The notes beneath the pieces are model-generated. The model saw only the letters and a list, made by a program, of their open reading frames with translations, was not told the DNA's origin and did no database searches. The position numbers and the translations under genes are program-made. A stretch of DNA of 55,099 nt. It comes from a virus. Positions 1 through 16,401 of this stretch are shown one piece after another. Positions within the stretch are counted from its first letter, which is position 1; each line of letters opens with the position of its first letter. Location of the stretch: positions 1-55,099 of IMG/VR virus record IMGVR_UViG_3300020473_000035. One strand, written 5' to 3'.

Positions 1-14
1 AAAAACAAACACAT
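1..14 (-). CDS. start of a gene cut by the window edge
   Basis: An ATG at position 14 reading left follows an AAAGGA Shine-Dalgarno-like sequence with good spacing and is the next start after the gene at 59-181. Only four codons (M-C-L-F) are inside the window, so nothing can be said about the product. Confidence 0.3.
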
Positions 15-58
15 TTGTATTTCCTTTATTTCTTTACGTCAAAAACTACCACTATCCA

Positions 59-181
59 CTACATACTCGCTTGTATAACACTGTGTATACTGGGTAACTC
101 AATGATACTACCAAGGATAATGAATAGAAGTATTGTTATTAGTAATGCCTGAAGGTATTCTATGTCTATGTGATCTCGCAT
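59..181 (-). CDS. small single-helix membrane protein (40 aa)
   Basis: A 40-residue open frame starts just after the stop of the gene at 183-263. Residues about 10-28 are strongly hydrophobic (L-Q-A-L-L-I-T-I-L-L-F-I-I-L-G), so a single membrane helix is expected, with a polar start (MRDHIDIEY). The family is not recognised. It is the third in a run of three tiny membrane peptides. A real gene is supported by the tight packing; function is unknown. Confidence 0.55.
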   Translation of the reverse strand: MRDHIDIEYLQALLITILLFIILGSIIELPSIHSVIQASM

Positions 182-182
182 G

Positions 183-263
183 TTAAATGTGTGGCCTCGT
201 GTGATACGCAATAATACCAATACTAATAGCGAGTATCAGTAACATTATTAACTCTGTGCTCAT
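183..263 (-). CDS. tiny membrane peptide (26 aa)
   Basis: The frame starts with an ATG overlapping the TGA of the gene at 260-358 (ATGA), which implies translational coupling. The 26-residue product is almost entirely one hydrophobic helix followed by a short basic tail (HTRPHI). Too short to place in a family. Confidence 0.5.
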   Translation of the reverse strand: MSTELIMLLILAISIGIIAYHTRPHI

Positions 264-358
264 GTCATCCTCATTAAAGAACCAATGAAACCAAGGATCT
301 CGAAACGGTATTCCCACAAGACAATGGTTATAACCGCTGTAATCAATCTGTCTAACAT
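260..358 (-). CDS. small membrane peptide (32 aa)
   Basis: Starts at the ATG at 358, two bases after the TAA of the upstream gene. Residues about 5-15 and 20-28 are hydrophobic, so it is probably membrane-inserted. A longer frame to 457 exists but would overlap the neighbour by about 100 bases, so the short start is preferred. Function unknown. Confidence 0.5.
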   Translation of the reverse strand: MLDRLITAVITIVLWEYRFEILGFIGSLMRMT

Positions 359-359
359 T

Positions 360-698
360 TTACTCTTCTGTCCTCCTCTTGTTATTGTAATACGCTGTAC
401 CCTCGGCCATAAACATAAGCACACCGGGGGGAACTTCGCCGGATGTTGCGCCTCCATGCTTGATAATCAAGTCACGCACAACACCAACAGGCACGTATGG
501 ATAAACTGTATCAGTTGGATCGTTAAATGTTTCAGCATAACCGTCAAGCATAGGATCTGCACTGCTCGGAAAACCAAGCTCAACCTCAATATACGGTCCA
601 TAGTCATCACGCGGACAACTATACTTATGTTTACCTGCCTGGATAGATACACTATAACCATCTTGACAATAAACACGTCTATACTGCTTATTGTCCAT
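360..698 (-). CDS. conserved phage protein, Y-R-R-V-Y-C-Q-D-G family (112 aa)
   Basis: A soluble acidic protein with a conserved-looking core: YRRVYCQDG near the N-terminus, SCPRDDYGPY around residue 27, and TDTVYPYVPV in the middle. From memory, similar small proteins occur as hypothetical proteins in large phages; no function is known. It overlaps the end of the upstream gene by 11 nt and is the last soluble protein before the membrane peptides. Confidence 0.75.
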   Translation of the reverse strand: MDNKQYRRVYCQDGYSVSIQAGKHKYSCPRDDYGPYIEVELGFPSSADPMLDGYAETFNDPTDTVYPYVPVGVVRDLIIKHGGATSGEVPPGVLMFMAEGTAYYNNKRRTEE

Positions 699-894
699 CT
701 TTTCTTTCCTCGCTTATCGAGCTTATAACGTCCATTGCGTTCAGGCGAACCAGCGGAGTCCAGCCCGTATCAATGTGGATACGCGCACAATCAGCGTTAG
801 CGATACTTTTGAAACCTTTAACGATCCCCACTCTGCCGATTAAACCGCCAGCGCTACACCATTTATTTACGCGAACTAAATCACCGACTTTCAT
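688..894 (-). CDS. GDLV-family small protein (68 aa)
   Basis: Begins MKVGDLVRV; a second ATG lies one codon upstream at 897, but AGGAG is better spaced from 894. The GRVGIVKGF stretch after residue 20 fits the second strand of an SH3/KOW-like barrel. Its C-terminus (ERKDGQ) departs from the ESR tail of its neighbours because the downstream gene is not a GDLV paralogue. It is the last member of the tandem array that begins at 2093. Function unknown. Confidence 0.75.
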   Translation of the reverse strand: MKVGDLVRVNKWCSAGGLIGRVGIVKGFKSIANADCARIHIDTGWTPLVRLNAMDVISSISEERKDGQ

Positions 895-1079
895 CATCTT
901 TCTCCTATATTGTAAAACCAACACCCAATAGAATAGGAGGTGCTTCCAACAAGATAAGATACACGATGATGCCACCGATAATCTTTATCATCGAATGGTA
1001 CGTCAAAAGCATCGAACCATCGAAAAGTAAACTCGCAAAATACGAATCCCAACCAATCTGTCAAATCACCGACTTTCAT
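894..1079 (-). CDS. divergent GDLV-family small protein (61 aa)
   Basis: Starts MKVGDL, with the first 14 nt shared with the end of the upstream gene. The rest is unusual: rich in Phe, Trp and Asp, with no G-I-V-V strand, so the barrel may be degraded or the frame shifted after the start cassette. The end (N-I-G-E-R) is partly encoded by the next gene's ribosome-binding site. It may be a decaying copy. Confidence 0.6.
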   Translation of the reverse strand: MKVGDLTDWLGFVFCEFTFRWFDAFDVPFDDKDYRWHHRVSYLVGSTSYSIGCWFYNIGER

Positions 1080-1263
1080 TGATAACCTCCAACCATTTCT
1101 TGGGTTCCCAAGCTTGTTCTTGGTAATCAAACCAATACACACACACGCGAGTGTTACGAGGATCGCTGTAGTCTTTCATTTTGACCACCACGCCAAACTC
1201 GGCTTTGTTCCCTGCTTCTCGGCTGTACTCGCCAGGCATTATTACCAGATCACCGACTTTCAC
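1066..1263 (-). CDS. GDLV-family small protein (65 aa)
   Basis: GTG start at 1263. The sequence follows the family plan: MKVGDLV, then F-G-V-V-V-K-M, then V-C-V-Y-W-F, ending L-E-V-I-N-E-S-R. Both ends overlap neighbouring paralogues by exactly 14 nt. The E-V-I of the C-terminus is encoded by the Shine-Dalgarno sequence of the next gene. Confidence 0.8.
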   Translation of the reverse strand: MKVGDLVIMPGEYSREAGNKAEFGVVVKMKDYSDPRNTRVCVYWFDYQEQAWEPKKWLEVINESR

Positions 1264-1426
1264 TTATAACCTCCACAGGCTGAAGATGGTGACGAATAAC
1301 GGTCATTATAGAGCCATGCCAAAAGAGTCTTGCGACTGGCCGCCCGCGCTCTGAATGCCATCCGAGAATAATGCCGGTGCCCCGCACTGTTCCCCACTTG
1401 TGTTTGACCAGATCACCGACTTTCAT
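1250..1426 (-). CDS. GDLV-family small protein (58 aa)
   Basis: Translated by eye from the ATG at 1426: MKVGDLVKHKWG, then T-G-I-I-L-G-W, then V-A-R-L-F-W-H, ending E-V-I-S-E-S-R. The TGA lies 11-14 nt inside the next gene (1066-1263), and its own start overlaps the gene at 1413-1580 in the same way. Predicted compact all-beta protein, function unknown. Confidence 0.78.
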   Translation of the reverse strand: MKVGDLVKHKWGTVRGTGIILGWHSERGRPVARLFWHGSIMTVIRHHLQPVEVISESR

Positions 1427-1580
1427 CACTTACAACCTTCAGTTCCCACGGTCGAAACCACATACGTTGTTCGGGGAATCTCGCGAACACAATGCGAAAC
1501 AACGGGCCATCATGCTGCAACGCTTTCGCCATAACAACACCGAAACCATAGTCACAATGTACTATATCACCTATTTTCAC
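1413..1580 (-). CDS. GDLV-family small protein (55 aa)
   Basis: GTG start at 1580 in the tandem series: MKIGDIVHCDYGFGVVM, then a variable middle with W-F-R-P-W, ending V-V-S-D-E-S-R. The ESR tail is read out of frame from the ATGAAAGTCGG start of the downstream gene. One of the shortest paralogues, so it approximates the minimal domain. Confidence 0.76.
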   Translation of the reverse strand: MKIGDIVHCDYGFGVVMAKALQHDGPLFRIVFARFPEQRMWFRPWELKVVSDESR

Positions 1581-1755
1581 TTACAACCTCCAATATAGCA
1601 TATGTCGCGGTGAAGCCTTCGCCGTCAAGACCGAGACAGTCATACGTCGTCACACTGCGCTCTTGAAAATAATCGAAGGACTCGCGCACTCTCACAATAA
1701 TACCCATCAAGTCGTCAGAGTGCCCGACAACACGCACCAGATCACCTATTTTCAC
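1567..1755 (-). CDS. GDLV-family small protein (62 aa)
   Basis: GTG start at 1755 with GTGAAAATAGG. Core: MKIGDLVRV, then M-G-I-I-V-R-V-R, a loop with two acidic patches, ending L-E-V-V-S-E-N-R. The tail is ENR rather than ESR because the next gene starts M-K-I (AAAATA) instead of M-K-V (AAAGTC), which shows directly that the tail follows the downstream start. Confidence 0.8.
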   Translation of the reverse strand: MKIGDLVRVVGHSDDLMGIIVRVRESFDYFQERSVTTYDCLGLDGEGFTATYAILEVVSENR

Positions 1756-1909
1756 TTATAACCTCCCATTCGGTGGGATCGAGCCACCATGATCGCTTTC
1801 CTTTGTACTGTCCTTCAAGTTCAAAAACCTGATAGTGTCCCGGCATGACTTTGATAACAATCCCACGTGGGCCACCGTCTTTATACTGGACCAAATCACC
1901 GACTTCCAT
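1742..1909 (-). CDS. GDLV-family small protein (55 aa)
   Basis: ATG at 1909, chosen over an upstream ATG at 1933 because it gives the standard 14-nt overlap and the conserved MEVGDLV start. R-G-I-V-I-K-V and Q-V-F-E-L-E follow, ending W-E-V-I-S-E-N-R. The E-N-R tail again mirrors a downstream M-K-I start. Confidence 0.78.
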   Translation of the reverse strand: MEVGDLVQYKDGGPRGIVIKVMPGHYQVFELEGQYKGKRSWWLDPTEWEVISENR

Positions 1910-2093
1910 TGGCAACCTCGTAATAGTTAGCATGATCGCGGATCACTCTCCCGTCCGTCAACAAGATCTGAATCAAGATACGCCCGCCGGGAAGGAAGCC
2001 GCTCCAACTCTTAAGCAAAACGCCCATATGACTTTCTCCATTATTGCGGATGATCCCCTCTTCATTGCTCTTGATCAGGTCGCCGATTTGCAT
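1896..2093 (-). CDS. GDLV-family small protein (65 aa)
   Basis: Starts MQIGDLIKS at 2093 with a TAATG junction to the previous gene. M-G-V-L-L-K-S and I-L-I-Q-I-L-L form the predicted strands. The C-terminus is V-A-N-G-S-R because the next gene begins M-E-V (ATGGAAGTC), a third variant of the dual-coded tail. Confidence 0.78.
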   Translation of the reverse strand: MQIGDLIKSNEEGIIRNNGESHMGVLLKSWSGFLPGGRILIQILLTDGRVIRDHANYYEVANGSR

Positions 2094-2419
2094 TAAACGC
2101 TTTCCTCCAAAGGTTTGAGGTGCTTACCGGGAATGTGAAACCCGTACATGATGCCATTAACAATAAAACGCACTTGGAAGTGGGGTAATCCGTCATCGGT
2201 CGCATCACCGGGGATCCATTCTTTAACCAGAAGCCCGATATTGCCCTCGATACGGGAATAACCCCGATCAGGGTGGACTTGAACCAGATCACCGACTTTG
2301 ATCACGCTCCCAGAAGCCCCCAGAGCGCCACAGGAGCCGCTTGAGCGGCTTGTACGACCCTGGACAGCCTGGAGGCGTGTGGAGTGCCCTGAAGGGCTTT
2401 GTGAGGCTTGTACGCTCAT
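2093..2419 (-). CDS. GDLV-family protein with a Ser/Gly-rich N-terminal extension (108 aa)
   Basis: The GDLV domain (K-V-G-D-L-V-Q-V, then I-G-L-L-V-K-E-W and F-Q-V-R-F-I-V) begins only at about residue 41. Before it lies a low-complexity S/G/Q/R-rich segment coded by a hairpin-rich, GC-rich stretch (about 2305-2419) that resembles the one at 5560-5650. The ATG at 2419 overlaps the upstream TGA (ATGA). A GTG just before I-K-V-G-D-L-V could be an alternative start but has a badly spaced ribosome site. The extension may be repeat-derived. Confidence 0.65.
   Translation of the reverse strand: MSVQASQSPSGHSTRLQAVQGRTSRSSGSCGALGASGSVIKVGDLVQVHPDRGYSRIEGNIGLLVKEWIPGDATDDGLPHFQVRFIVNGIMYGFHIPGKHLKPLEESV
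2326..2341. repeat. short perfect hairpin in the GC-rich segment
   Basis: AGCCGC-TTGA-GCGGCT forms a 6-bp stem with a 4-nt loop. Another, GCCCT-GA-AGGGC, lies about 45 nt further right. Both lie in the segment encoding the extension of the gene at 2093-2419. They could slow translation or be remnants of a mobile repeat. Confidence 0.45.
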
Positions 2420-2625
2420 GCGCTTGCAGGCTCCACGGTAGCGGCGAACACGTTGGCAAACTGCATCTCAAGATCGGGCGTCATGTTGCCATCGGCGCGG
2501 GTCTTCTGCATCTCCGCGAAAAGTCCCATTTGAAGCACCATAGCGTTCAGCGAGGTCTGGGCGCGCTCCAGGGGTCCGAGAGCGGGCTGGGTAGAAGTAG
2601 AGGAAGAAAGGGCTGTATCAGTCAT
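2416..2625 (-). CDS. small phage protein, unknown (69 aa)
   Basis: A Ser/Thr-rich start (MTDTALSSSTSTQP) is followed by a probable amphipathic helix (residues about 20-45, A-Q-T-S-L-N-A-M-V-L-Q-M-G-L-F-A). No family recognised. A GGAG precedes the ATG, and the stop overlaps the next start (ATGA). Confidence 0.6.
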   Translation of the reverse strand: MTDTALSSSTSTQPALGPLERAQTSLNAMVLQMGLFAEMQKTRADGNMTPDLEMQFANVFAATVEPASA

Positions 2626-2666
2626 TTAGTAGTCTCCGAGAAAGAAGAGGGAAGGAAAAGGTTTGT

Positions 2667-2951
2667 TTAGCCTTGCGCGAGGATCGCGGCAAGCTGGGCG
2701 GCGGTAAGGTGCTCAACGTTGATCGTCTTCACCTTGTGGACGGTGATCTCGGCTCCAGGCTTGCGAGCGGCGCGGATAGAGCCACCATCACAGGCAAGGA
2801 CGTATTCGCCACGGTTCGACTTGCGCGGACGGAAGGTGCCACCAGCCAGCTTGATACCTGCTTTCTTAGCGGCTGCGCGAATCTGGCGCTTGCCATCATT
2901 CCAAGAAACAGAGGAAGAACCAGGGGTAGAAGAGAGAAGTCCGATTTTCAT
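2667..2951 (-). CDS. small basic phage protein, unknown (94 aa)
   Basis: Start set at the ATG at 2951 (MKIGLLSSTPGSSSVSW), the first in frame after the promoter at 3008-3061; an upstream ATG would lie between promoter and leader. The middle is basic (K-R-Q-I-R-A-A-A-K-K-A-G-I-K) and a C-terminal helix (L-T-A-A-Q-L-A-A-I-L-A-Q-G) follows. Possibly nucleic-acid binding; this is inference only. Its stop overlaps a copy of the AAGGTTTGTTT motif. Confidence 0.65.
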   Translation of the reverse strand: MKIGLLSSTPGSSSVSWNDGKRQIRAAAKKAGIKLAGGTFRPRKSNRGEYVLACDGGSIRAARKPGAEITVHKVKTINVEHLTAAQLAAILAQG

Positions 2952-3007
2952 AGGGTCAAAGTCCTGGGAAGGAGGGGAGCGACGGTTAAACCTCAACCGT
3001 CAAAGAC

Positions 3008-3061
3008 ATTATCTCACATGCGAACGAAAAGGTCAAGAGAAGTCTGTCAACTAAATGTCAA
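3008..3061 (-). promoter_or_regulatory. triple-box promoter
   Basis: Read on the minus strand: TTGACA-N5-TTGACA-N8-TTGACC-N17-GATAAT with TGA before the -10. It drives the gene at 2667-2951 and those downstream. The distal box contains the TGA stop of the gene at 3058-3279. Confidence 0.85.
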
Positions 3062-3279
3062 GAGATTTTCTCAACCCACATCGGGTGAAACTTCAGGATG
3101 GAAGTACCAAACTGGACACGGTATAGAATCTCGCCTTGTCTCCATGGGCGTTCGTCAGGCGCAACGACTTCCACGATCAAGCCCGTTCGGTGCGCGGGCA
3201 TGTCGGGGTCATGCGTACCTGGGCGGATCCTGACGAGATCGCCCACTTCCAAAGGTTTATTTCGGGTCTTCGTATCCAT
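3058..3279 (-). CDS. GDLV-family small protein (73 aa)
   Basis: The GDLV start is preceded by a nine-residue leader (MDTKTRNKP), so the domain begins L-E-V-G-D-L-V-R-I. T-G-L-I-V-E-V-V and I-L-Y-R-V-Q-F are the next strands. No paralogue lies downstream, so there is no ESR tail; the gene ends E-K-I-S with its TGA inside a promoter box. It uses GGC, not GGT, in G-D. Confidence 0.78.
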   Translation of the reverse strand: MDTKTRNKPLEVGDLVRIRPGTHDPDMPAHRTGLIVEVVAPDERPWRQGEILYRVQFGTSILKFHPMWVEKIS

Positions 3280-3466
3280 CGGGGGTTGTTTGGGGCATCA
3301 AAAACGAAGGAACATACTCGTTTTCTGGGGTATACGGCTCAAGCTCCATAGGCGGGAGCGCTTCGAGGATCTGATCGAGGATGGCGCGAAGGTATGCAAT
3401 ATCCTCCTCGATCTCGGCGTCTTCCTTGGCTTTTCGGTACTCTGAAAGGTTTACAAGGTTGTCCAT
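3257..3466 (-). CDS. small acidic phage protein (69 aa)
   Basis: Start at 3466 (MDNLVNLSEYRKAK), overlapping the upstream stop by one base (TAATG). The N-terminal half is a charged helix (E-D-A-E-I-E-E-D-I-A-Y-L-R-A-I-L-D-Q-I-L); the C-terminal half is Pro-rich. Similar V-N-L-S-E-Y-R peptides are common phage hypotheticals. No function known. Confidence 0.68.
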   Translation of the reverse strand: MDNLVNLSEYRKAKEDAEIEEDIAYLRAILDQILEALPPMELEPYTPENEYVPSFLMPQTTPDGYEDPK

Positions 3467-3777
3467 TAGAACGGCACCTCTTCCATCCATCCAGTGCCGG
3501 AAAGCGGCGATACATCCCAGACTTTCGGGTGCATGACCAGATCAGCCACGCCCTTCGCCAGTCCGACATGAACGCTGGTGGTGTGGGACTGGAAAGTGCC
3601 GGTAGCAGCGGTGTAATCAGCGACAACGCACGCATTACCGGCGCGCATTCCGATCTTCAAGCCATACGAAAATAGAGCTTTGCCGTCTGTTGTCAGGGCG
3701 CGCTTGGAACTGTGTGCGGGCTGACCTTTAGACCAGCGCTCGATCACGCCACGGTTGTTTGTTCTGATTGATTTCAT
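3466..3777 (-). CDS. conserved phage protein, unknown (103 aa)
   Basis: A basic start (MKSIRTNNRGVIERW) is followed by a beta-rich body (T-T-D-G-K-A-L-F-S-Y-G-L-K-I-G, then H-T-T-S-V-H-V). Family not named. The ribosome site GAGAGGA is good. It follows the VWA/metallopeptidase gene by 14 nt and is probably co-transcribed with it. Confidence 0.68.
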   Translation of the reverse strand: MKSIRTNNRGVIERWSKGQPAHSSKRALTTDGKALFSYGLKIGMRAGNACVVADYTAATGTFQSHTTSVHVGLAKGVADLVMHPKVWDVSPLSGTGWMEEVPF

Positions 3778-3791
3778 AGGTTTGTCCTCTC

Positions 3792-5063
3792 TTATACGTC
3801 AATCGCGATGACGCGCTCTTGGGTTTGGAAGTAGGGGCGATCTGCATACTCTTTGGTGGTCATCCACATCCGTTGGCATGCGCTTGAAATGGGCTTTGGA
3901 GCCATCATATCGGTGAGGATGATGTGACCGTCAAAGTTGTGCTCATTGACATAGCGGGTGGGCGCATTAAAGCAGGTTCCACCGCACATAACGCGCTCCC
4001 ATACGCGGGTCTGACCTTTCTTCCAGACATAAATCTTGTCTTCACCGACCACTGAATCGAAGGGGATCACGGTGAACTCGGCAACATCGGCAAGCTCATT
4101 CAACTCGGAGAAGAACGCGGCAAGCATGCGATCATCCACGGATCCGCTTTGATCGATGCTAATGGCGATCTTGGCATGGCGACGAACGCGCTTGCCTGGG
4201 TGGATGCGAGGAAAACGACGGTTCAAGCGTCGAGGCGTGGAGCGGCGATCTGAACGCTGGGAGGTCTTGACGAAATAACGCAGTACCTTCCTCCAATCTA
4301 CGCGGGTGGTGATGCGGTCCATGATCTCTTTACGCATGCCAGCCGAAACAGATCCCCAGTTGCGGGCTTTCTCCGCGTCTTCTGCGGCTTTCTTGACGGC
4401 TTCCTTCAAGCGCTCTTTAGCGATCTCGTTCGCGGTGCCATCGGTGTCACCGAAAGCGTCGTGGTCGTCGAAAGAGTCCATTCCACCGAAAGGATCGCCA
4501 TTCCCAGGCTGACCCTGACCGCTTCCAGGCTCGCCGGGTTGCCCCTGACCATCGCCTTCGCCGCCCTCTGGATCGCCTTCGCCCATCTTCTTAAGAGCTT
4601 CCAGATACCATTCGTAAGTCATGTTTGCGGGAAGGTCAGCGAACGGTCCTTCGCCTGGAAGGCAGCCTTTCATCGGCTCGCCTGAAGGCATGAGAGGACC
4701 GGGATCGCTCTCACATGGCAGTTTGCCAACCATCTCGGGCAGACCGTTGATCGCAAGGTCCATCGCGATATTGTCGATGCGGCGGATGCCCTCGGAGGGC
4801 TTGCGACCCGTGACATGCTCCAGAATGATGTGATAGAACTCATGCATCAATACGCCAAGTTTATGCTCGTCTTTCAACTGGGCGAAGAACTCTGGATTGT
4901 ACATAAGCTCGAACTGCTGGCGATCAGGGTTGACGCGCACGCCAGCGGTCGGGATCGCGGTCGTCGGGGTCTTGTCGATCCGCCGCGACAACGACGCGAA
5001 AAACGGCTCCTGCATGAGCAGGCGAGCAGTGTGAAGATTAAGGTTGAAGGGGGCTTCAGACAC
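3792..5063 (-). CDS. VWA-like protein with a putative metallopeptidase domain (423 aa)
   Basis: GTG start at 5063 with AAGGAG upstream. The N-terminal part carries an HExxH zinc-peptidase motif (H-E-F-Y-H, residues 74-78). A Gly/Glu/Gln-rich linker (about 170-200) follows, then a VWA-like domain with a D-Q-S-G-S MIDAS motif at about residue 305. The order matches the DUF2201-type 'putative metallopeptidase plus VWA-like' architecture. In bacteria such proteins pair with MoxR AAA+ ATPases, and a MoxR gene lies 1 kb upstream (6092-7168), so the two probably act together on a common target, perhaps as a chaperone or remodelling pair. Substrate unknown. Confidence 0.85.
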   Translation of the reverse strand: MSEAPFNLNLHTARLLMQEPFFASLSRRIDKTPTTAIPTAGVRVNPDRQQFELMYNPEFFAQLKDEHKLGVLMHEFYHIILEHVTGRKPSEGIRRIDNIAMDLAINGLPEMVGKLPCESDPGPLMPSGEPMKGCLPGEGPFADLPANMTYEWYLEALKKMGEGDPEGGEGDGQGQPGEPGSGQGQPGNGDPFGGMDSFDDHDAFGDTDGTANEIAKERLKEAVKKAAEDAEKARNWGSVSAGMRKEIMDRITTRVDWRKVLRYFVKTSQRSDRRSTPRRLNRRFPRIHPGKRVRRHAKIAISIDQSGSVDDRMLAAFFSELNELADVAEFTVIPFDSVVGEDKIYVWKKGQTRVWERVMCGGTCFNAPTRYVNEHNFDGHIILTDMMAPKPISSACQRMWMTTKEYADRPYFQTQERVIAIDV

Positions 5064-5089
5064 GGGGCAACTCCTTGATCATATACCTA

Positions 5090-5143
5090 AGTATACAGGA
5101 AGAATCAAAAAAGGTCAAGCGATCTTTGTCAAGAGAATGTCAG
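5090..5143 (-). promoter_or_regulatory. triple-box promoter for the VWA gene
   Basis: CTGACA-N5-TTGACA-N8-TTGACC-N17-TATACT. It lies just upstream of the GTG at 5063. The distal CTGACA holds the TGA stop of the gene at 5140-5421. Confidence 0.85.
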
Positions 5144-5421
5144 GACTGCTCATCTTCGTTAAAAGCGGCTTCGATCTCGGCAATGTCCGCCACGGTCATC
5201 TTCTTCTCGGCTTTTCGACGCTTGTTTTGAGCAGCCATCAGCTTGCGGTATCGGCTCGGAGTGTGCTTGCAAACGGCGATATTCTCGATTCCGATGCGCT
5301 CCATGCGTCGAAGGGATTCATTGGATGCCGCGAGAGTATCGGGCTTTGTAAGGATGGTTTCGGTCGCTTTGATGCGCCCGTCCACGATGGCGATGTCAGT
5401 TTTGCTCACGTAGTACTTCAA
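5140..5421 (-). CDS. small charged phage protein (93 aa)
   Basis: A longer frame runs through the promoter, so the likely start is the TTG at 5421 (L-K-Y-Y-V-S-K-T-D), seven bases after AGGAG. The C-terminal third is highly charged and helical (K-L-M-A-A-Q-N-K-R-R-K-A-E-K-K). No family recognised. It is a single-gene operon between the MoxR and VWA operons. Confidence 0.65.
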   Translation of the reverse strand: MKYYVSKTDIAIVDGRIKATETILTKPDTLAASNESLRRMERIGIENIAVCKHTPSRYRKLMAAQNKRRKAEKKMTVADIAEIEAAFNEDEQS

Positions 5422-5446
5422 GGTCGATCTCCTAACTTGATGTCTC

Positions 5447-5500
5447 ATTGTCTCATATGCGAGAGAGAAAGTCAAGGTTTTTTTGTCAAAGGAATGTCAA
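5447..5500 (-). promoter_or_regulatory. triple-box promoter
   Basis: TTGACA-N5-TTGACA-N8-TTGACT-N17-GACAAT with TATGA before the -10. It drives the gene at 5140-5421. A fourth TTGACC lies a little further upstream (about 5508-5513). Confidence 0.82.
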
Positions 5501-5566
5501 GAGAATGAGGGTCAATCTGGGTTCATGCGCGGCATGCCAGGAAGACCGAAAAGGTTTATTTGAGCG

Positions 5567-5644
5567 CTCTGTGAGGCTCCTGAAGGCTTGCTAACGGCTC
5601 CCAGGTATGACGACAGCCCAGAGCGCTCACAGGGGCTCACAGAG
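5567..5644. repeat. 9-bp inverted repeat in a GC-rich intergenic segment
   Basis: CTCTGTGAG (5567-5575) and CTCACAGAG (5636-5644) are perfect inverses, with two GAGCGCTC palindromes nearby. In the minus-strand transcript the arms can pair at the end of the gene at 5637-5861 and may act as a transcript end or stabiliser. There is no clear U-run. The sequence resembles 2305-2419. Confidence 0.5.
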
Positions 5645-5861
5645 GCTCCTGGGCGCTGCTACGGCGGTACTCCGCAGCCAGTTGTAGATCGTGCTTCCAG
5701 AATGACCGTCCATTCTCGAAAACCCTGTAAAGACGCCGATCATCAGTGGATCCACGCCCATAGGTCGAGCGCCCACTTGGGCGACTTTCGAGGATAATAG
5801 CGGTTTTTCCTGTTTTAACACGGATTAGAAGCTCTCCAATCTCAAAGGTTTGTTTGTTCAT
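5637..5861 (-). CDS. divergent GDLV-family small protein (74 aa)
   Basis: MNKQTFEIGELLIRV resembles the GDLV start with E-L-L for D-L-V. K-T-A-I-I-L-E-S follows as the second strand. The end (Y-R-R-S-S-A-Q-E-P-L) runs into the GC-rich repeat. ATGA overlap with the upstream gene. Confidence 0.65.
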   Translation of the reverse strand: MNKQTFEIGELLIRVKTGKTAIILESRPSGRSTYGRGSTDDRRLYRVFENGRSFWKHDLQLAAEYRRSSAQEPL

Positions 5862-6091
5862 AGGGGATCGCCCTCCTTGATCGGCATGAGCGCATCACCG
5901 TGAAAAATCATCTCCAAGCCGCTCTTTAACCACTTGATGCGGTATCTCGGCTTGAAAAGTCCATCACGAGCGACGACGCCCACAACCATGCCAGGACCAG
6001 ACTTTTCAGTAAAAGCTGAATCGGGCGATCCCCTCGCGAGGCGGTTGGTCATGTAGACCAACTCGCCCAGAGAGTAGTTGTAATCCTCCAT
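5858..6091 (-). CDS. divergent GDLV-family small protein (77 aa)
   Basis: Starts directly after the MoxR stop codon. L-G-E-L-V-Y-M replaces G-D-L-V; G-M-V-V-G-V-V and Y-R-I-K-W-L fit the following strands. Co-translated with MoxR, so it could be an adaptor for it; this is inference from position only. Confidence 0.65.
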   Translation of the reverse strand: MEDYNYSLGELVYMTNRLARGSPDSAFTEKSGPGMVVGVVARDGLFKPRYRIKWLKSGLEMIFHGDALMPIKEGDPL

Positions 6092-7168
6092 TTAGCCACC
6101 CAGGATGGTCACCAAGTGCTCGCTAACACGGACGCCGCTGGTAGTGTCGGCTTTGTGGAGCGCGACCACGTTGGGGACCATATCAGCGTCACCCAGGACG
6201 GTCCAGAGCTTCATAGCCACCTCGGAAGGCAGGGAAACGAAGTAATCGGCGAGGTTCTTGATCTGAACGTCGGTGAGTTCCGTCTTGAAGGTTTCAGCCG
6301 CCTCGAACTTCTCGATCATGGCGGCGTGATCGTTGATGCCCCACTCGGAAGTCTTGGCGATCTCGCCGTTGTCCAGCAGATCTTCGATGGTCACTTGCCA
6401 GGAGTAGTTGACCACGAAGTCCTTCAGTTGAACAGCCGCCTCGAAACCGAGGAATGCATTGGCGAGGTTGAAAAGGAGATCGAGATCGCCCTTCTCCTCG
6501 AAAACGCCCGCTGGAGTAGCGGTATCGTTGAAGCGCTTCCAAGAGCGACGAGAAGGATAAACCTTGTTCGGCTCGAAGTCGCTGCGATGCTCCAAGTGGG
6601 TGCGGTTCTGGTTGATGAAGTCCCAAACGACGCTTGCAACCTTGCCATTCGCCCACTTGAGCCAATCTTCGTCAGACGGATCCACGTCGAAGACGGTCCA
6701 GCGGTCGAGTTCGGCGGGATCCATCTCACCGACTTGGTACTGGGCACCGTGCTCGCCACCGTTGACGGCAGCGATGATCAGGGTTTCAGGGTGAAGATGC
6801 CAGCCATTGATCTTGCGGCTATCGGTAAGCTCGAAAAGACCCTGGCGAACCTCCATAGTCGCGCGGTCGACCTCATCCAAGAACAGGACGACGGGCTGCT
6901 CGCAAGCGGTCACGAGCCAATCGGGAGCGTTCCACGTGGTAGCCTTGCGACCATTGATAGCGGTGTCCGCCGTATCTGGCAGACCGAGAAGATCGCCCTC
7001 GGTCATCTGGGAAGCGCGGCGCTCGACGACGGGAAGCTGGCGATCACGGGCGATCATGTAGACCACCTCGGATTTACCGACACCGTGACGACCACGGATA
7101 AGGACGGGCAAACGCGCATCGAGGATGTGGGGGGCGACAGAAAGGAAGGTGGCGAAGTCTACAGCCAT
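6092..7168 (-). CDS. MoxR-family AAA+ ATPase (358 aa)
   Basis: Walker A is G-R-H-G-V-G-K-S (26-33) and Walker B is V-V-L-F-L-D-E-V-D (93-101), followed by sensor-like A-A-V-N (about 134-137) and D-P-A-E-L-D-R-W, typical of MoxR/RavA/CbbQ-type ATPases. The C-terminal 150 residues are helical and not assigned. These ATPases act as chaperone-like motors and usually work with VWA-domain proteins; one lies in the next operon (3792-5063). The phage substrate is unknown. Its own triple-box promoter is at 7212-7265. Confidence 0.9.
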   Translation of the reverse strand: MAVDFATFLSVAPHILDARLPVLIRGRHGVGKSEVVYMIARDRQLPVVERRASQMTEGDLLGLPDTADTAINGRKATTWNAPDWLVTACEQPVVLFLDEVDRATMEVRQGLFELTDSRKINGWHLHPETLIIAAVNGGEHGAQYQVGEMDPAELDRWTVFDVDPSDEDWLKWANGKVASVVWDFINQNRTHLEHRSDFEPNKVYPSRRSWKRFNDTATPAGVFEEKGDLDLLFNLANAFLGFEAAVQLKDFVVNYSWQVTIEDLLDNGEIAKTSEWGINDHAAMIEKFEAAETFKTELTDVQIKNLADYFVSLPSEVAMKLWTVLGDADMVPNVVALHKADTTSGVRVSEHLVTILGG

Positions 7169-7211
7169 GTGGTTTCTCCAGGGGAGTGTGAAGTTTTTAG
7201 CTTACTCTGTA

Positions 7212-7265
7212 AGTATACAGGAAGAAAGAAAGAAGGTCAAGTGTTTTTTGTCAAGAGGGTGTCAA
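7212..7265 (-). promoter_or_regulatory. triple-box promoter for the MoxR operon
   Basis: TTGACA-N5-TTGACA-N8-TTGACC-N17-TATACT. Its -10 region (TATACTTA) matches those at 5090 and 8672 closely, defining a TATACT sub-class alongside the GATAAT sub-class. Confidence 0.87.
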
Positions 7266-7274
7266 GCCTCGATT

Positions 7275-7496
7275 TTACCCATTGCAGGCGGGATGACCCC
7301 AGTTGTTATACTGCCAATCGCTGATCTCTTGATCTTTGCACAGGCTATCAGTCCAGTTGTTCCACGCTTCGCGGCGAGCGGGATAATCGGGATCGCCGTC
7401 GCGCTCCCATCGCTCTTGGATCAGGGGGAGAATGTGAACCTCGAAATATGCACATGCATCCTCGAAGGTCATGACGTAGGGAAGGTTTTTAGCCAT
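7275..7496 (-). CDS. conserved phage protein (73 aa)
   Basis: Start at the ATG at 7496 (MAKNLPYVMTFEDACAYF), seven bases after AGGAG; the longer frame to 7556 is the promoter read as protein. The C-terminal block Y-P-A-R-R-E-A-W-N-N-W-T-D-S-L-C recalls a family of small phage hypotheticals. Acidic, Trp-rich, function unknown. Confidence 0.72.
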   Translation of the reverse strand: MAKNLPYVMTFEDACAYFEVHILPLIQERWERDGDPDYPARREAWNNWTDSLCKDQEISDWQYNNWGHPACNG

Positions 7497-7527
7497 TGGC
7501 GAACTCCTATTGCTCAATGATGGATCC

Positions 7528-7581
7528 ATTATCTCATAGGCGAGAAGAAAGATCAAGGGTTTTTTGTCAGGTAAATGTCAA
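7528..7581 (-). promoter_or_regulatory. triple-box promoter
   Basis: TTGACA-N5-CTGACA-N8-TTGATC-N17-GATAAT with TATGA before the -10. It drives the gene at 7275-7496. Confidence 0.85.
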
Positions 7582-7612
7582 GAGTGAAAAGAGTAGGAAG
7601 AAAGTATTAAAA

Positions 7613-7792
7613 GAGGTGGTGGGGAGTGCCGCTGTCCTCGTCGCGCCACATGACCAGCCGCGTTTTCACTGCCCGCTGTGGGGCGCGCTCACCTAAGCCC
7701 CCATTCCCGAAGGCCTTATTATCCTTACAGTGAGCAAGGGTTCATTCACGGCTTTGAACCCCGGTTTACATTAAAAATCTCCCCACCACCTC
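7613..7792 (-). ncRNA. candidate structured RNA closed by a 14-bp stem
   Basis: The largest gene-free stretch (7497-7835) holds a promoter and this element. GAGGTGGTGGGGAG occurs at one end and its exact inverse, CTCCCCACCACCTC, at the other (7613-7626 and 7779-7792). Inside are a 7-bp hairpin (GGGTTCA with TGAACCC) and a 5-bp GC-rich hairpin (GGGGC with GCCCC). On the minus strand the 3' arm is followed by TTTT, so the element could end transcription after the gene at 7836-8645 or be processed as a stable RNA. It does not match tmRNA, 6S RNA or RNase P RNA by eye. Confidence 0.5.
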
Positions 7793-7835
7793 ATTACAGG
7801 CCACTTTATAGATCGCGCATAATACGCTTTCCTCC

Positions 7836-8645
7836 TTATTTCTTCTTCTTTGGGGTGCGAGCGCGCTTAAGCTGGCGCTCCTCGCAGATAAAGGTTTGCG
7901 CTCCACCGATGGGAAGGAGCTTATAGAGCTTGTTTCCGCGTGCTGCGCTGGTGGGCACTGCGATATTGGTGGCGATCACCATCGCGAGATTGTCTTTGTT
8001 AGGGCAGCTTTGAGATTGTGCGTAGGTCGCACCAGCACCAAGGGCCACCATGCTCCCCACTGCATATTTCGGCTCGGCAAACCACCCAGCGTAGATCTTA
8101 CGGATGAACTTGTTATCAGTCACGCGGTTGTACTCGTCCATAGTGGGAACCATGGAAGTATCAGCGAAATAAGCGGCCACCTGTTTGCCGTAATACCCGC
8201 TGCTGCGGTAGTATGACATGGCAATAGCATAGCGCTCTGCTTTCTCGTCATTCCACGCGGCATACCACTGATCGCGGGCGTCCATAGCTTCATCGCTGTA
8301 TTTCCCCTGGATCTTCTCCAGAATCTCCTTCTGACGCTCGGAAAGGTTGCGGCCGCCCAAAAGCTGGGTTCGGATGCTGCTAACAAAGCGGTCATCCCAT
8401 GAGCCGTTGTCCACAGCGGACACGCGCCCCTTGAGCACGTTGATCTCGTCCAGACCCTCGGCAGGTTCGGGGCGCGTAGCATAGCGCTCTTCCATCTGGA
8501 CGAAGCAGCGACGGCGGCCAGCGGTCAGTGAACCCTTGCGCTTGTAGTGGCTGTAAAGGCTCTCCGCAAAGCTGCGATCCCGGTCGGAAACGTAGTCTTT
8601 CGCGAGAAGGGCAGCGAAGCGGTCATGGTAGGTAGTGCGGGGCAT
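7836..8645 (-). CDS. unknown phage protein (269 aa)
   Basis: The N-terminal half is helical and highly charged (Y-H-D-R-F-A-A-L-L-A-K, then R-S-F-A-E-S-L-Y-S-H-Y-K), with repeated Q-K-E-I-L-E and R-D-Q-W-Y-A-A-W segments. The C-terminal half has a hydrophobic Ala/Gly stretch (V-G-S-M-V-A-L-G-A-G-A-T-Y-A) and ends in a Lys-rich tail (R-T-P-K-K-K-K). No family recognised. Single-gene operon with its own promoter. Confidence 0.72.
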   Translation of the reverse strand: MPRTTYHDRFAALLAKDYVSDRDRSFAESLYSHYKRKGSLTAGRRRCFVQMEERYATRPEPAEGLDEINVLKGRVSAVDNGSWDDRFVSSIRTQLLGGRNLSERQKEILEKIQGKYSDEAMDARDQWYAAWNDEKAERYAIAMSYYRSSGYYGKQVAAYFADTSMVPTMDEYNRVTDNKFIRKIYAGWFAEPKYAVGSMVALGAGATYAQSQSCPNKDNLAMVIATNIAVPTSAARGNKLYKLLPIGGAQTFICEERQLKRARTPKKKK

Positions 8646-8671
8646 GTGGCTCCTTTGATGATTACTCTGTA

Positions 8672-8901: not shown

Positions 8902-8928
8902 GTTGTAGTTCTCCTTGAGCATGTATAC

Positions 8929-9325: not shown

Positions 9326-9326
9326 T

Positions 9327-10289: not shown

Positions 10290-10579
10290 GCCTCATCAAG
10301 CCCGTCCCAGTGGGCATCTACGAAGCGCTTGGTATTCCGCAGTGCGGAAAGCTCTGGATCCTCGCCGTTTATTTTGGCGCTGGCCACCTGTGCCTCACAC
10401 TCACGTGCAAAGGCGCGGATAAACTTGATCAGTGCGATCTTGCCAAATGCCGCTTTCTTGCCTGTGATCTGACCGCCATAGGGCGGGCGCACGTGCCTCT
10501 TGTGAAGCATCAGCGCGATCTTATAGGCATCATCCAACCCTTTGGTGTCGTCGGTGTCGAGCACAATCGTCATTTTCAT
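10286..10579 (-). CDS. small phage protein, unknown (97 aa)
   Basis: Start at 10579 (MKMTIVLDTDDTKGLDDAYK), overlapping the previous stop (ATGA). The body is mostly helical and basic in the middle (F-G-K-I-A-L-I-K-F-I-R-A-F-A-R-E-C-E). Last gene of the operon starting at about 11690. Confidence 0.7.
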   Translation of the reverse strand: MKMTIVLDTDDTKGLDDAYKIALMLHKRHVRPPYGGQITGKKAAFGKIALIKFIRAFARECEAQVASAKINGEDPELSALRNTKRFVDAHWDGLDEA

Positions 10580-10755
10580 ATTACTACCTCCAGTTCCGTC
10601 CATGGATGGAGCGTGTCTTTCCCAGACGCATCCACTGGACCATTGACGAGCTTGTACCAAGTATTGTCATGATCCTCGGCCACCAGAAAGATGCCCGGTG
10701 TGTTAGGATCCTTGAATCTGACGAGATCGCCCACCTTAATAAATCGCGTCTTCAT
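10576..10755 (-). CDS. GDLV-family small protein (59 aa)
   Basis: Translated by eye from the ATG at 10755: MKTRFIKVGDLVRFKDPNTPG, then I-F-L-V-A-E-D and W-Y-K-L-V-N, ending L-E-V-V-I. The six-residue leader before the domain and the ATGA overlaps at both ends differ from the 14-nt arrays. It uses GGC in G-D, where no out-of-frame stop is needed. Confidence 0.76.
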   Translation of the reverse strand: MKTRFIKVGDLVRFKDPNTPGIFLVAEDHDNTWYKLVNGPVDASGKDTLHPWTELEVVI

Positions 10756-10907
10756 GATACCACCTCTATGCCCTCGTAGTGGATGTTATAGCCGCATGCT
10801 GGGCGGCCACTGGCGAACCAGCACACCAGAAAAGAGAGCTTGTGAAGCTCAACGACAACGCCCATCTCGCCGGTACTCTTCCAACGAACCAGATCACCGA
10901 CTTTCAT
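10752..10907 (-). CDS. GDLV-family small protein (51 aa)
   Basis: ATG at 10907. MKVGDLVRWKSTGEMGVVVEL, then F-L-V-C-W-F, ending I-E-V-V-S. Among the most compact members, a useful guide to the minimal fold: three to four strands and no extra helix. ATGA overlaps on both sides. Confidence 0.77.
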   Translation of the reverse strand: MKVGDLVRWKSTGEMGVVVELHKLSFLVCWFASGRPACGYNIHYEGIEVVS

Positions 10908-11074
10908 TGACTCACAACCTCAAGATCACAGGGGGAAGCAATAGTCCTATGTTCAACGTCCAAGCGCTTGACCACATAATCAAGCCCAAGAGGGCAGCTA
11001 TGAAGCCCAACGATCAAGGCGAGTTTCCACCCTTCATATTTGGTTTTAACCTTCACGAGATCGCCGACTTTCAT
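10904..11074 (-). CDS. GDLV-family small protein (56 aa)
   Basis: ATG at 11074. MKVGDLVKVKTKYEGWKLAL, then L-D-Y-V-V-K-R-L, ending L-E-V-V-S-Q. First GDLV gene after two tiny non-GDLV genes. Confidence 0.76.
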   Translation of the reverse strand: MKVGDLVKVKTKYEGWKLALIVGLHSCPLGLDYVVKRLDVEHRTIASPCDLEVVSQ

Positions 11075-11701: not shown

Positions 11702-11755
11702 ATTATCTCATAGGCGAAGGGGGAAGTCAAGGTTTATTTGTCAAGCAAATGTCAA
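11702..11755 (-). promoter_or_regulatory. triple-box promoter
   Basis: TTGACA-N5-TTGACA-N8-TTGACT-N17-GATAAT with TATGA before the -10. Drives the operon 11675 to 10286. The distal box includes the TGA of the gene at 11752-11934. Confidence 0.88.
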
Positions 11756-11934
11756 AGGATCTGGAGATCTTTAGGAAGGAAGGGGCGAGGGTGATTATTG
11801 CTGACCTTCACGTTGCTCATGAAGTATACGTGGCAAATGTTGCCCCACAAGCCAGTTTTTACGATCAGCCCGATAGTTCCCTTTGGAATACCGATACTGG
11901 CGCGTGTAATCTTTACCAAGTCACCGACTTTCAT
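11752..11934 (-). CDS. GDLV-family small protein (60 aa)
   Basis: Start at 11934, giving the 14-nt overlap with its upstream paralogue. MKVGDLVKITRASIG, then G-L-I-V-K-T-G-L and C-H-V-Y-F-M, ending K-D-L-Q-I-L with the TGA in a promoter box. Last of a three-gene array. Confidence 0.78.
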   Translation of the reverse strand: MKVGDLVKITRASIGIPKGTIGLIVKTGLWGNICHVYFMSNVKVSNNHPRPFLPKDLQIL

Positions 11935-12124
11935 TGACTGCCTCCAGATATTTCCAACTGATTTGCCGAACGGGCCACTTAGTAACTCCATTCCACAATA
12001 CCTCGGCAGAGTTATATGCGGGATGGATACCCTCTTTCATCTCATGAAAGAAGATCCTCAACACAACGCCCATACCAAGCCTATCACCGGAACCCGTGTA
12101 TCTCACCAGATCACCGACTTGCAT
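11921..12124 (-). CDS. GDLV-family small protein (67 aa)
   Basis: MQVGDLVRYTGSGDRLGMGVV at the start; L-R-I-F-F-H and S-A-E-V-L-W-N follow. Ends Y-L-E-A-V-N-E-S-R, the ESR being dual-coded with the next start. 14-nt overlaps at both ends. Confidence 0.8.
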   Translation of the reverse strand: MQVGDLVRYTGSGDRLGMGVVLRIFFHEMKEGIHPAYNSAEVLWNGVTKWPVRQISWKYLEAVNESR

Positions 12125-12296
12125 TGATTGTCTCCAATGAATCTATGCGAAAGAAGCGCACGGGCATGCCTTTATAGGTCACGCGCGCATGCTCACCGTC
12201 GAGACAAATGGCAGTTACCAACATCGGTACACCGATAAGAGAGCCTTGGTAGCCACGCGCGATTTTTCGAGGAGTGACCAAATCACCGACTTGCAT
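12111..12296 (-). CDS. GDLV-family small protein (61 aa)
   Basis: Begins MQVGDLVTPRKIARG directly after the upstream TAA. V-P-M-L-V-T-A-I and A-R-V-T-Y-K are the strands. Ends E-T-I-N-A-S-R: the Ala arises because the downstream gene starts M-Q (ATGCAA), another variant of the shared junction. Confidence 0.79.
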   Translation of the reverse strand: MQVGDLVTPRKIARGYQGSLIGVPMLVTAICLDGEHARVTYKGMPVRFFRIDSLETINASR

Positions 12297-13997: not shown

Positions 13998-14051
13998 AGT
14001 ATACTCCAGATAAATAGAAAAGTCAATGGTTTCTCGTGAAGAGAATGTTAA
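13998..14051 (-). promoter_or_regulatory. triple-box promoter with degenerate distal boxes
   Basis: TTAACA-N5-TTCACG-N8-TTGACT-N17-TATACT. The distal TTAACA carries the TAA stop of the gene at 14048-14239, so the stop/box overlap is kept even where the box has drifted. Confidence 0.8.
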
Positions 14052-14239
14052 GAGGAAGATATGATGTTGCGGATCTGCGAGCGACTGACAAGTCCAAAGG
14101 TTTGTTTGCCGTCGTTAATGGTGAAAAGCACATCACCTGCGCGTTGAACAGTGCCGATAATGATCCCCCGCCTCATGGTTGTGAAGGTTCGTCCTGATGG
14201 ATGGTAAGTCTCGAAGGAAACATAATCACCGACTTTCAT
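14048..14239 (-). CDS. GDLV-family small protein (63 aa)
   Basis: MKVGDYVSFETYHPSG, then R-R-G-I-I-I-G-T-V and D-V-L-F-T-I-N. D-Y-V replaces D-L-V. Its start gives the ESR tail to the upstream gene (14-nt overlap). It contains a copy of AAGGTTTGTTT inside the reading frame (14097-14107). Confidence 0.77.
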   Translation of the reverse strand: MKVGDYVSFETYHPSGRTFTTMRRGIIIGTVQRAGDVLFTINDGKQTFGLVSRSQIRNIISSS

Positions 14240-14477
14240 TTTGGTTTGCCCCTTTGACCCTGATCTTTATGTAGTCTTCCACGCTCAAGTAATAATAGGA
14301 AGCATCTTCGATGATCCCCTCGGTCGGATGAGCAACTTTTAAGACGGGATAATCCACATCAGCCCAGCCCATGCTGGCATCGTCGGGTTTGCCGAAATAC
14401 GGACCTTCGTAAATGTCAAGGATGGTACACCATCCCGTGGGCATTCTGTCCTGCCAAACTAAATCGCCAATGTTCAT
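14226..14477 (-). CDS. GDLV-family small protein (83 aa)
   Basis: Start at 14477 (MNIGDLVWQDRMPTG), ATGA with the previous gene. C-T-I-L-D-I-Y-E and Y-P-V-L-K-V-A-H are strands, with a longer C-terminal part than most, ending G-A-N-Q-N-E-S-R. It uses GGC for Gly because no overlap stop is needed at its own start. Confidence 0.77.
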   Translation of the reverse strand: MNIGDLVWQDRMPTGWCTILDIYEGPYFGKPDDASMGWADVDYPVLKVAHPTEGIIEDASYYYLSVEDYIKIRVKGANQNESR

Positions 14478-14656
14478 TTCATCACCTCGCATTGCCAGGA
14501 TACCCAGCCGACTTCTTTGCCGCCGCAAAGCACGATAATGTCGCTCCATTGAGAGGACGTTTTGTGTCCGTTCTTTGGCATGTGCCTAATAAGTAGTCCA
14601 ACATGAGCAGTGTCATTGATGTAATCGTAAAATCTAATCAGATCACCGGGTCTCAT
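14474..14656 (-). CDS. GDLV-family small protein (60 aa)
   Basis: Start at 14656: MRPGDLIRFYDYINDTAHVG, then L-L-I-R-H-M and I-I-V-L-C-G. The ATG AGA CCC GGT GA junction encodes N-E-T-R at the end of the upstream gene, showing that the overlap is kept although two N-terminal residues have changed. Confidence 0.77.
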   Translation of the reverse strand: MRPGDLIRFYDYINDTAHVGLLIRHMPKNGHKTSSQWSDIIVLCGGKEVGWVSWQCEVMK

Positions 14657-14879
14657 TGCTTTCCTCCTCAACTATAGTAAGATAATGAACCAGCAAACCT
14701 TGCGCCAGTTCGCCCGACTTTGCAAACCAAACATTGCACTGGTAGTTATCAGCGCTGATAATAGGTTGTCCAGTTGCACAGTGATGATCATCTATATGTA
14801 CCACAATCCCCAGCCCATGGGTGTCGTTGATAGTTGTGCCATAACGATCATTCCATCTAACTAAATCTCCCACCTTCAT
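14643..14879 (-). CDS. GDLV-family small protein (78 aa)
   Basis: MKVGDLVRWNDRYGTT, then L-G-I-V-V-H-I-D and C-N-V-W-F-A, ending E-E-E-S-N-E-T-R. ATGA overlap with the previous gene and 14-nt overlap with the next. Confidence 0.8.
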   Translation of the reverse strand: MKVGDLVRWNDRYGTTINDTHGLGIVVHIDDHHCATGQPIISADNYQCNVWFAKSGELAQGLLVHYLTIVEEESNETR

Positions 14880-15037
14880 GCCACCACCTCAAAGCAATCT
14901 GGATCAGACCACATCTTATAGCCAGTTCGCATGCACAACACAAGCATATCTGGACCTTTAAGCTGCAATACGATCCACAGTATGCTCATATCAAGGGCAT
15001 ACTCCATCTTCATTTTGACGAGGTTGCCAACTTTCAT
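14876..15037 (-). CDS. GDLV-family small protein with G-N-L-V (53 aa)
   Basis: Translated by eye from the ATG at 15037: MKVGNLVKMKMEYALDM, then L-W-I-V-L-Q-L and L-V-L-C-M-R, ending F-E-V-V-A. Asp of G-D-L-V is replaced by Asn. First gene of the operon driven from 15061-15115. Confidence 0.74.
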   Translation of the reverse strand: MKVGNLVKMKMEYALDMSILWIVLQLKGPDMLVLCMRTGYKMWSDPDCFEVVA

Positions 15038-15504: not shown

Positions 15505-15719
15505 TCCCAGGTTCCCCGCTCATCAAACAAGTCTTCAACAGAACCCGTAAAGCTATGCGGGGCCATTTCGCGCAGATTTTCTCGGGTACGACGTGCAATA
15601 ATGCGATTCGCATTGCGCCCCCCGCAATCCAAGCAAGTTCTATAGCCCAACTCCCTACGTTTATAGTTGTAGTCCTCGCCACAGTTGATGCATTCGGCGT
15701 ATTTAATCTCGACTTTCAT
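15501..15719 (-). CDS. zinc-ribbon protein (72 aa)
   Basis: Two C-x2-C knuckles (C-I-N-C-G at 10-13 and C-L-D-C-G at 29-32) are followed by an Arg-rich helix (R-I-I-A-R-R-T-R-E-N-L-R). Small transcription-related zinc ribbons look like this. Although not a GDLV protein it begins MKVE, so the upstream gene again ends E-S-R-D through a 17-nt overlap. Confidence 0.78.
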   Translation of the reverse strand: MKVEIKYAECINCGEDYNYKRRELGYRTCLDCGGRNANRIIARRTRENLREMAPHSFTGSVEDLFDERGTWE

Positions 15720-15993
15720 AATACTCTCCTTGGTTGTTATAGTAATGATAGCGTCTTCTCAAATTGTAAAGGTTTATTTCGCACTCGGTTCCTTCGCGAT
15801 TGTCGCGTGCCATCCCGCGAAAGCGTTTGTGGGTATTGCGATAAGGAAATGGAATATCGGTGAGCCAACGTATACGCCATGACCATGTGCCATGCACTTC
15901 GATTCTCTCCATCAAAATCCCATGATGGCCCGGGTAGGAGTGGTATTTGCTGGTGACGATTAGATCGCCTTGTTTGAACTTATAGTGACTCAC
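15703..15993 (-). CDS. GDLV-family small protein (96 aa)
   Basis: GTG start at 15993: M-S-H-Y-K-F-K-Q-G-D-L-I-V-T, then H-G-I-L-M-E-R-I and W-S-W-R-I-R-W. A long basic C-terminal part (R-R-R-Y-H-Y-Y-N-N) follows. It overlaps its upstream paralogue by exactly 14 nt although its start lacks the MKVGD cassette. Confidence 0.76.
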   Translation of the reverse strand: MSHYKFKQGDLIVTSKYHSYPGHHGILMERIEVHGTWSWRIRWLTDIPFPYRNTHKRFRGMARDNREGTECEINLYNLRRRYHYYNNQGEYYESRD

Positions 15994-16180
15994 TGATTAT
16001 CTCCAACTTGTGCCCCCTTACCCATGTGCGTTCAACGCCGGGAGTCAGCGGCAATACAAAATACCAATCGTCAACTGTGCCTGGACGCTTGGCATCTGGA
16101 TAGTCTGGTTCAAGGCATTCAATCACACACATTTGTTTAACTCCTCGTATCTGTGCCCACACTAAATCTCCTCGCTTCAC
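15980..16180 (-). CDS. GDLV-family small protein (66 aa)
   Basis: GTG start (M-K-R-G-D-L-V-W-A), then C-V-I-E-C-L-E and Y-F-V-L-P-L, ending L-E-I-I-S-E-S-L. The tail is SESL rather than SESR because the downstream start is GTGAGTCAC, but the overlap is still 14 nt. Confidence 0.78.
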   Translation of the reverse strand: MKRGDLVWAQIRGVKQMCVIECLEPDYPDAKRPGTVDDWYFVLPLTPGVERTWVRGHKLEIISESL

Positions 16181-16401
16181 TTATCTGTCCCAATCCATTC
16201 AAAATCACTTCCCAACCATTCTTCGGGGGGATCGCTCGATGGAAACTTAACAACAATGGTTTCTTGTTGGTATCGCGACTGCTCAAACGTCTTGATAACA
16301 ACTCCAACCTTGAGGATATATTCACCATAACCACCATGATTGATGTGGTTCTTGGCGACCTCTCGGTCCATTACTACTAAGTCTCCTACTATAAATCGCA
16401 T
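16177..16401 (-). CDS. GDLV-family small protein (74 aa)
   Basis: M-R-F-I-V-G-D-L-V-V-M, then L-K-V-G-V-V-I-K-T-F and T-I-V-V-K-F, ending W-I-G-T-D-K. GTGA junction with the next gene. Confidence 0.78.
   Translation of the reverse strand: MRFIVGDLVVMDREVAKNHINHGGYGEYILKVGVVIKTFEQSRYQQETIVVKFPSSDPPEEWLGSDFEWIGTDK

Follow-up and report, generated by a model that had tools for sequence, protein, structure and literature searches.

Several systems have been described in which small genes are exchanged as units. In integrons, arrays of mostly single-gene cassettes lying in the same direction are joined at one conserved short site, and genes are gained, lost and reordered singly by an integron-type tyrosine recombinase acting on attC sites that fold as hairpins. 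In the nin region of lambdoid phages, described as a ‘chain of interlinked genes’ (Kroger and Hobom 1982, cited in PMC8022706), tightly packed small early genes of different families near P and Q are linked by 4-nt ATGA overlaps of stop and start and are mosaic between relatives. Short conserved sequences at gene boundaries have also been proposed as points at which phage modules are exchanged, although such sequences are not seen at most mosaic joints, and for mycobacteriophages illegitimate exchange has been favoured at most boundaries (PMC3029335). In T4-type phages, small genes of plastic regions are shuffled as modules with promoter early stem-loops (PeSL; Arbiol et al. 2010, cited in PMC4177764), which appear to be non-coding promoter and stem-loop elements lying between genes.

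Here we describe runs of small genes for predicted barrel-shaped proteins in large uncultured, probably marine, phages related to T4. These genes share a short overlapping seam, and related phages gain, lose and reorder single genes at those seams. The analysis began with a 55,099-base fragment recorded in IMG/VR (hereafter the window) and was extended to 256 loci from related viral contigs (numbered with the prefix L).

Structure of the seam

An earlier note had reported eleven junctions in the window at which consecutive genes overlap by exactly 14 nt. Every family start on the - strand was reread and all eleven overlaps were confirmed (Table 1). Ten are of the form RTG-NNN-NNN-GGT-GA, in which the downstream start box is read in frame +2 by the upstream gene as (N/S)-E-S-R-stop or a variant set by the second and third codons of the downstream gene. 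The tails follow the downstream start as the note described (ESR, ENR, GSR, ASR), and M-R-P gives ETR. The eleventh overlap, at the start at 15993, is also 14 nt but reads GTGAGTCATTATAA (ESL-stop) and so lacks the GGTGA device. The start at 1426 is ambiguous, since a GTG at 1429 would give an overlap of 17 nt. The same family also uses 4-nt junctions (10755, 10907, 14477, 14879 and 16180), a 1-nt junction (2093) and a 0-nt junction (12296). The note had further claimed that most starts at which no overlap stop is needed use GGC or GGA instead of GGT. The use of GGT at overlap starts is partly a tautology, because the stop needs it. At starts without the overlap the window has 9 GGC/GGA against 4 GGT, but across relatives such starts are still 65-74% GGT against 30% in the gene bodies, and this part of the claim therefore does not generalise. 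Interestingly, the array gene at 894-1079 has the seam-type N-terminus but a body unlike the family, and is perhaps foreign sequence captured behind a seam or a frameshifted member.

Table 1. Family genes and seams in the window (positions in the 55,099-base stretch).
Position	Strand	Feature	Sequence or remark
688..894	-	family gene, last of array 1	MKVGDLVRVNKW...; start at 894 or 897
894..1079	-	array 1 gene	N-terminus MKVGDL
1066..1079	-	14-nt seam	ATGAAAGTCGGTGA
1066..1263	-	family gene	predicted SH3-like barrel
1250..1263	-	14-nt seam	GTGAAAGTCGGTGA
1250..1426	-	family gene	
1413..1426	-	14-nt seam	ATGAAAGTCGGTGA
1413..1580	-	family gene	65% identical to a gene in L061 with a different upstream neighbour
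1567..1580	-	14-nt seam	GTGAAAATAGGTGA
1567..1755	-	family gene	homologue in L175 (see text)
1742..1755	-	14-nt seam	GTGAAAATAGGTGA
1742..1909	-	family gene	
1896..1909	-	14-nt seam	ATGGAAGTCGGTGA
1896..2093	-	family gene	1-nt junction with the gene before it
2093..2419	-	head of array 1	family domain with an N-terminal extension (or start at 2305)
10576..10755	-	family gene	4-nt junction
10752..10907	-	family gene	4-nt junction
10904..11074	-	family gene	head of a 4-nt-linked run
11752..11934	-	family gene, array 2	
11921..11934	-	14-nt seam	ATGAAAGTCGGTGA
11921..12124	-	family gene, array 2	
12111..12124	-	14-nt seam	ATGCAAGTCGGTGA
12111..12296	-	family gene, head of array 2	
14048..14239	-	family gene, array 3	
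14226..14239	-	14-nt seam	ATGAAAGTCGGTGA
14226..14477	-	family gene	MNIGDLV...
14474..14656	-	family gene	MRPGDLI...
14643..14656	-	14-nt seam	ATGAGACCCGGTGA
14643..14879	-	family gene	
14876..15037	-	family gene	4-nt junction to the next
15703..15993	-	family-like gene	extended N-terminus
15980..15993	-	14-nt overlap of different sequence	GTGAGTCATTATAA
15980..16180	-	family gene	
16177..16401	-	family gene	4-nt junction to the next

Occurrence in related phages

The MoxR-type ATPase encoded in the window has relatives 62-90% identical in many IMG/VR contigs of up to about 205 kb. Fourteen large related contigs of 185-267 kb, several of them with such a MoxR relative and four (G001-G004) carrying MoxR relatives 79-81% identical to that of the window, all have a T4 gp23-type major capsid gene and a RecA/UvsX-like recombinase gene, although these are not in the window itself, which is a fragment. 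A 20-nt seam pattern occurs 4-17 times in each of the fourteen contigs, nearly always on one strand and mostly clustered within tens of kilobases, with zero hits for the reversed-pattern control. Six stretches of about 19 kb hold 14-25 family genes each, and the window holds 23 that meet the pattern used. No close cultured phage was found: a DNA search of cultured phages with the first 8 kb found nothing, tblastn with two array proteins found no cultured phage, and the MoxR gene matched cultured phages only at about 27-28% identity in the best rows. A seam search of bacterial genomes hit only four metagenome-assembled contigs. The title of one of these names a marine source (Tara Red Sea), so a marine habitat is likely, although this was not established for all contigs. 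L172 (CP070664.1, candidate division WOR-3, a 2.8-Mb MAG chromosome) has two family genes with a 14-nt seam in a contig labelled a bacterial chromosome, which may be a prophage, a misassembly or a host copy. Beyond the arrays, the window appears from inspection to encode many cellular-type proteins between 20155 and 55021 (-), including GroEL-like, two ClpP-like, adenylosuccinate synthase-like, IMP dehydrogenase/GMP reductase-like, DNA polymerase III alpha-like, ribonucleotide reductase-like and ThyX-like proteins. A repeated promoter-like element with TTGAC(T/C), a 17-nt spacer and GATAAT/TATACT was found at 11715, 10249 and 7541 (-) and about ten other places, the strongest all on the - strand, with 35 promoter-like sites against 18.9 expected in 1-19000.

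The 256 loci contain 1,947 distinct family genes and 978 linked family-to-family junctions, of which 830 are 14-nt overlaps, 115 are 4-nt and 33 are others. Arrays reach 13 genes. The consensus around the start is TGGAGGTNATCA-RTGAAAGTCGGTGATYTGGT. Of 14-nt junctions, 910 of 1,163 also carry TGA in the other alternative frame, so the start box usually stops an upstream gene in either frame. GTG is the start codon in 58% of overlapped genes but in 14-15% of 4-nt or seamless ones. The family is hyperdiverse: an HMM grown from one window protein finds 1,755 of 1,924 members, yet in the first set 510 of 717 clusters at 40% identity are singletons. Differences between homologues by codon position are 0.108, 0.072 and 0.267, showing that these are real coding genes whose proteins are under purifying selection. 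The evidence for coding of the upstream tail is more modest and comes from codons alone, without protein data. The valine codon GTT, which would put Trp before the stop of the upstream gene, is 7 of 696 at 14-nt junctions and 9 of 75 at 4-nt junctions (p = 3e-6). This fits a constraint on the tail but could also reflect shared descent. In literature searches for this seam or for the peptide MKVGDLV nothing was found.

Gene exchange at the seam

The earlier note proposed that the arrays may work as a cassette system, and comparison of related genomes supports this. For family pairs 90-98% identical in their core, a homologous upstream neighbour is kept in 8 of 30 cases (27%) and a downstream one in 6 of 36 (17%), whereas non-family genes of 60-100 aa in the same loci at the same identity keep them in 27 of 32 (84%) and 34 of 41 (83%). 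Maps of the arrays show the same cassettes in different orders and companies, and in L137 the same cassette recurs in one array. The window's own array has only distant relatives in the set, but two of its genes that lie about 13 kb apart (1567-1755 and 14226-14477) have homologues directly joined by a 14-nt seam in L175, with the homologue of 1567-1755 lying directly before that of 14226-14477.

In pairs with different neighbours, DNA identity is about 0.88 inside the gene and falls to the random level just outside the seam on both sides. Of 1,181 alignment ends inside arrays, 82% lie within 25 nt of a seam against 22% expected, although these ends are not all independent since some loci overlap. 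Alleles at variable seam positions are tied to the upstream gene up to about position 0, to the downstream gene from about +6 and partly to both between. Linkage to the upstream gene declines, and to the downstream gene rises, across positions 0 to +18, as expected if crossovers fall at different points of the overlap. Near-identical phages also differ by whole genes cut at seams. L062 and L010/L083 are 99-100% identical over 17 kb except for one 176-nt gene, cut exactly between 20-nt repeats of the start box, and its presence or absence turns a 14-nt junction into a 4-nt one or back and leaves all frames intact. L102 and L106/L088 share 98.5-99% identical flanks but carry permuted cassettes, and L122 and L125 (99.3%) differ by one cassette. 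Nineteen distinct whole-gene indels have both ends at family starts.

The predicted protein

Pfam, PHROGs and PDB sequence profiles gave only scattered weak SH3-like hits. A structural model of the protein encoded at 1066-1263, made from 88 relatives, is a confidently predicted five-stranded SH3-like barrel (mean pLDDT 93). It matches KOW domains of Spt5, Tudor domains and R67 DHFR at VIA-align Z 7-9 (7.4-8.7 for the Spt5/KOW and Tudor matches), although no Foldseek E-value was significant (0.04 or worse). Many of the best viral structure matches in BFVD have closely numbered UniProt accessions (A0A516M7xx/MBxx), which suggests a few deposited genomes rich in this family. The seam codes for the first and last strands, which every member needs, and the E-S-R tail lies beyond the last strand. 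A role in binding host proteins or nucleic acid is a guess from the fold.

Mechanism of exchange

We consider it likely that this is a cassette array in a large T4-related phage, in which each cassette is one small gene, from start codon to stop, for a predicted SH3/KOW-like barrel protein of a hyperdiverse family. The cassettes share a seam consisting of the last strand codons L-E-V-I, whose GAGGT is also the Shine-Dalgarno of the next gene, and then RTG AAA GTC GGT GAT YTG GT, the constant first strand of the next barrel. The start box carries a TGA in frame +2 (GGTGA, 14-nt overlap) and usually also in frame +1 (RTGA, 4-nt overlap). It therefore starts its own gene and stops whatever gene is placed before it, so any cassette fits behind any other. 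While the gain, loss and reordering of genes singly or in small groups, with junctions inside the seam, is seen, we infer that exchange is by the phage's general or short-homology recombination (RecA/UvsX-like) between seams of co-infecting phages or within an array, and that the many barrels are a fast-changing set of host-interaction proteins. General recombination is favoured by the RecA-family gene in 14 of 14 large relatives, the lack of site-specific recombinases in the same relatives, the spread of crossovers and the 20-nt repeat of the cleanest event, but it is unproven.

An alternative that remains possible, though we hold it only tentatively, is that illegitimate recombination occurs anywhere and only those events leaving whole genes survive, the seam being conserved only because it is a ribosome-binding site, a start and two structural strands. 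In agreement with this, exact identity between two seams is short (median 10-11 nt, usually 8-20 nt), which is little for strand-invasion recombination, and the repeats at indels are only marginally longer than controls (13 nt against 11, p = 0.035), so selection for intact frames may do much of the work and the seam may mark the exchanges that survive selection rather than drive them. Family genes heading an array, without the overlap, also change neighbours, so the 14-nt overlap itself is not shown to raise the rate, although this comparison by junction type was not decisive because a change of context often changes the junction type. However, non-family small genes in the same regions shuffle far less at equal identity, the cleanest recent event has an exact 20-nt repeat, and the GGT bias of seam codons persists even at starts without overlap. 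A further possibility, also held only tentatively, is that the seam is an evolved, integrase-free recombination adaptor, kept nearly constant because it lets phages shuffle an open-ended pool of SH3-fold effector cassettes, so that recombinability itself, and not only translation and fold, is under selection.

Other explanations appear very unlikely. Tandem duplication with vertical descent of the overlap would account for the membership of one family and for the near-duplicates found inside some arrays, but as the sole explanation it is contradicted by genes up to 100% identical in their core that have unrelated neighbours on both sides in other phages, by the permuted gene orders and by the loss of similarity at seams; it remains as one source of new copies. 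Site-specific recombination with the seam as attachment site would give a similar product, namely directional single-gene cassettes with one conserved short site. However, no tyrosine or serine recombinase family (Phage_integrase, Resolvase) was found in the 14 large relatives, and PF00589 has no match in the window or in these relatives while being positive in 14 of 14 control genomes, although a host-encoded enzyme is not excluded. Six window seams fold no better than shuffles (z -0.70 to +1.48), and allele linkage changes gradually across the overlap rather than at one point. Since the seam is repeated and all the sequences are assembled from metagenomes, chimeric assembly was also considered. 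Seam repeats of 20-31 nt are shorter than a usual sequencing read, arrays recur intact across separately assembled contigs over 4-18 kb, and chimeras would not leave copies diverged by 5-20% in different contexts.

Compared with integron arrays, the single-gene, same-direction units are alike, with seams nearly all on one strand per genome, but no integrase family was found in the window or the 14 large relatives and no attC-like hairpin in six window seams, the site is coding sequence read in two frames and the cassettes encode one predicted fold. In the nin region the overlap is 4 nt and the genes are of different families, whereas here most overlaps are 14 nt, in another frame, between paralogues with hundreds of interchangeable members and in gp23-bearing phages. 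The PeSL cassettes differ in that the seam described here leaves no intergenic space and no stem-loop was found in the six tested seams. As in the proposed boundary-sequence mosaicism, similarity between genomes breaks at a short conserved sequence, but here the boundary is nearly universal within the family and lies inside both coding sequences. This case joins the interlinked genes of the nin region and the proposed boundary sequences in a much larger, dual-coded form with one predicted fold.

Phage mosaicism is well known, but the proposed short boundary sequences are rarely found at the joints. In this family the joint is near-universal, lies in two reading frames and can be counted in hundreds of natural junctions, so that homology-driven and selection-only models can be compared directly. 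It also shows how a start site can double as a two-frame stop, giving plug-in gene units apparently without a dedicated enzyme, and it points to a large unexplored set of small phage proteins with a predicted SH3 fold.
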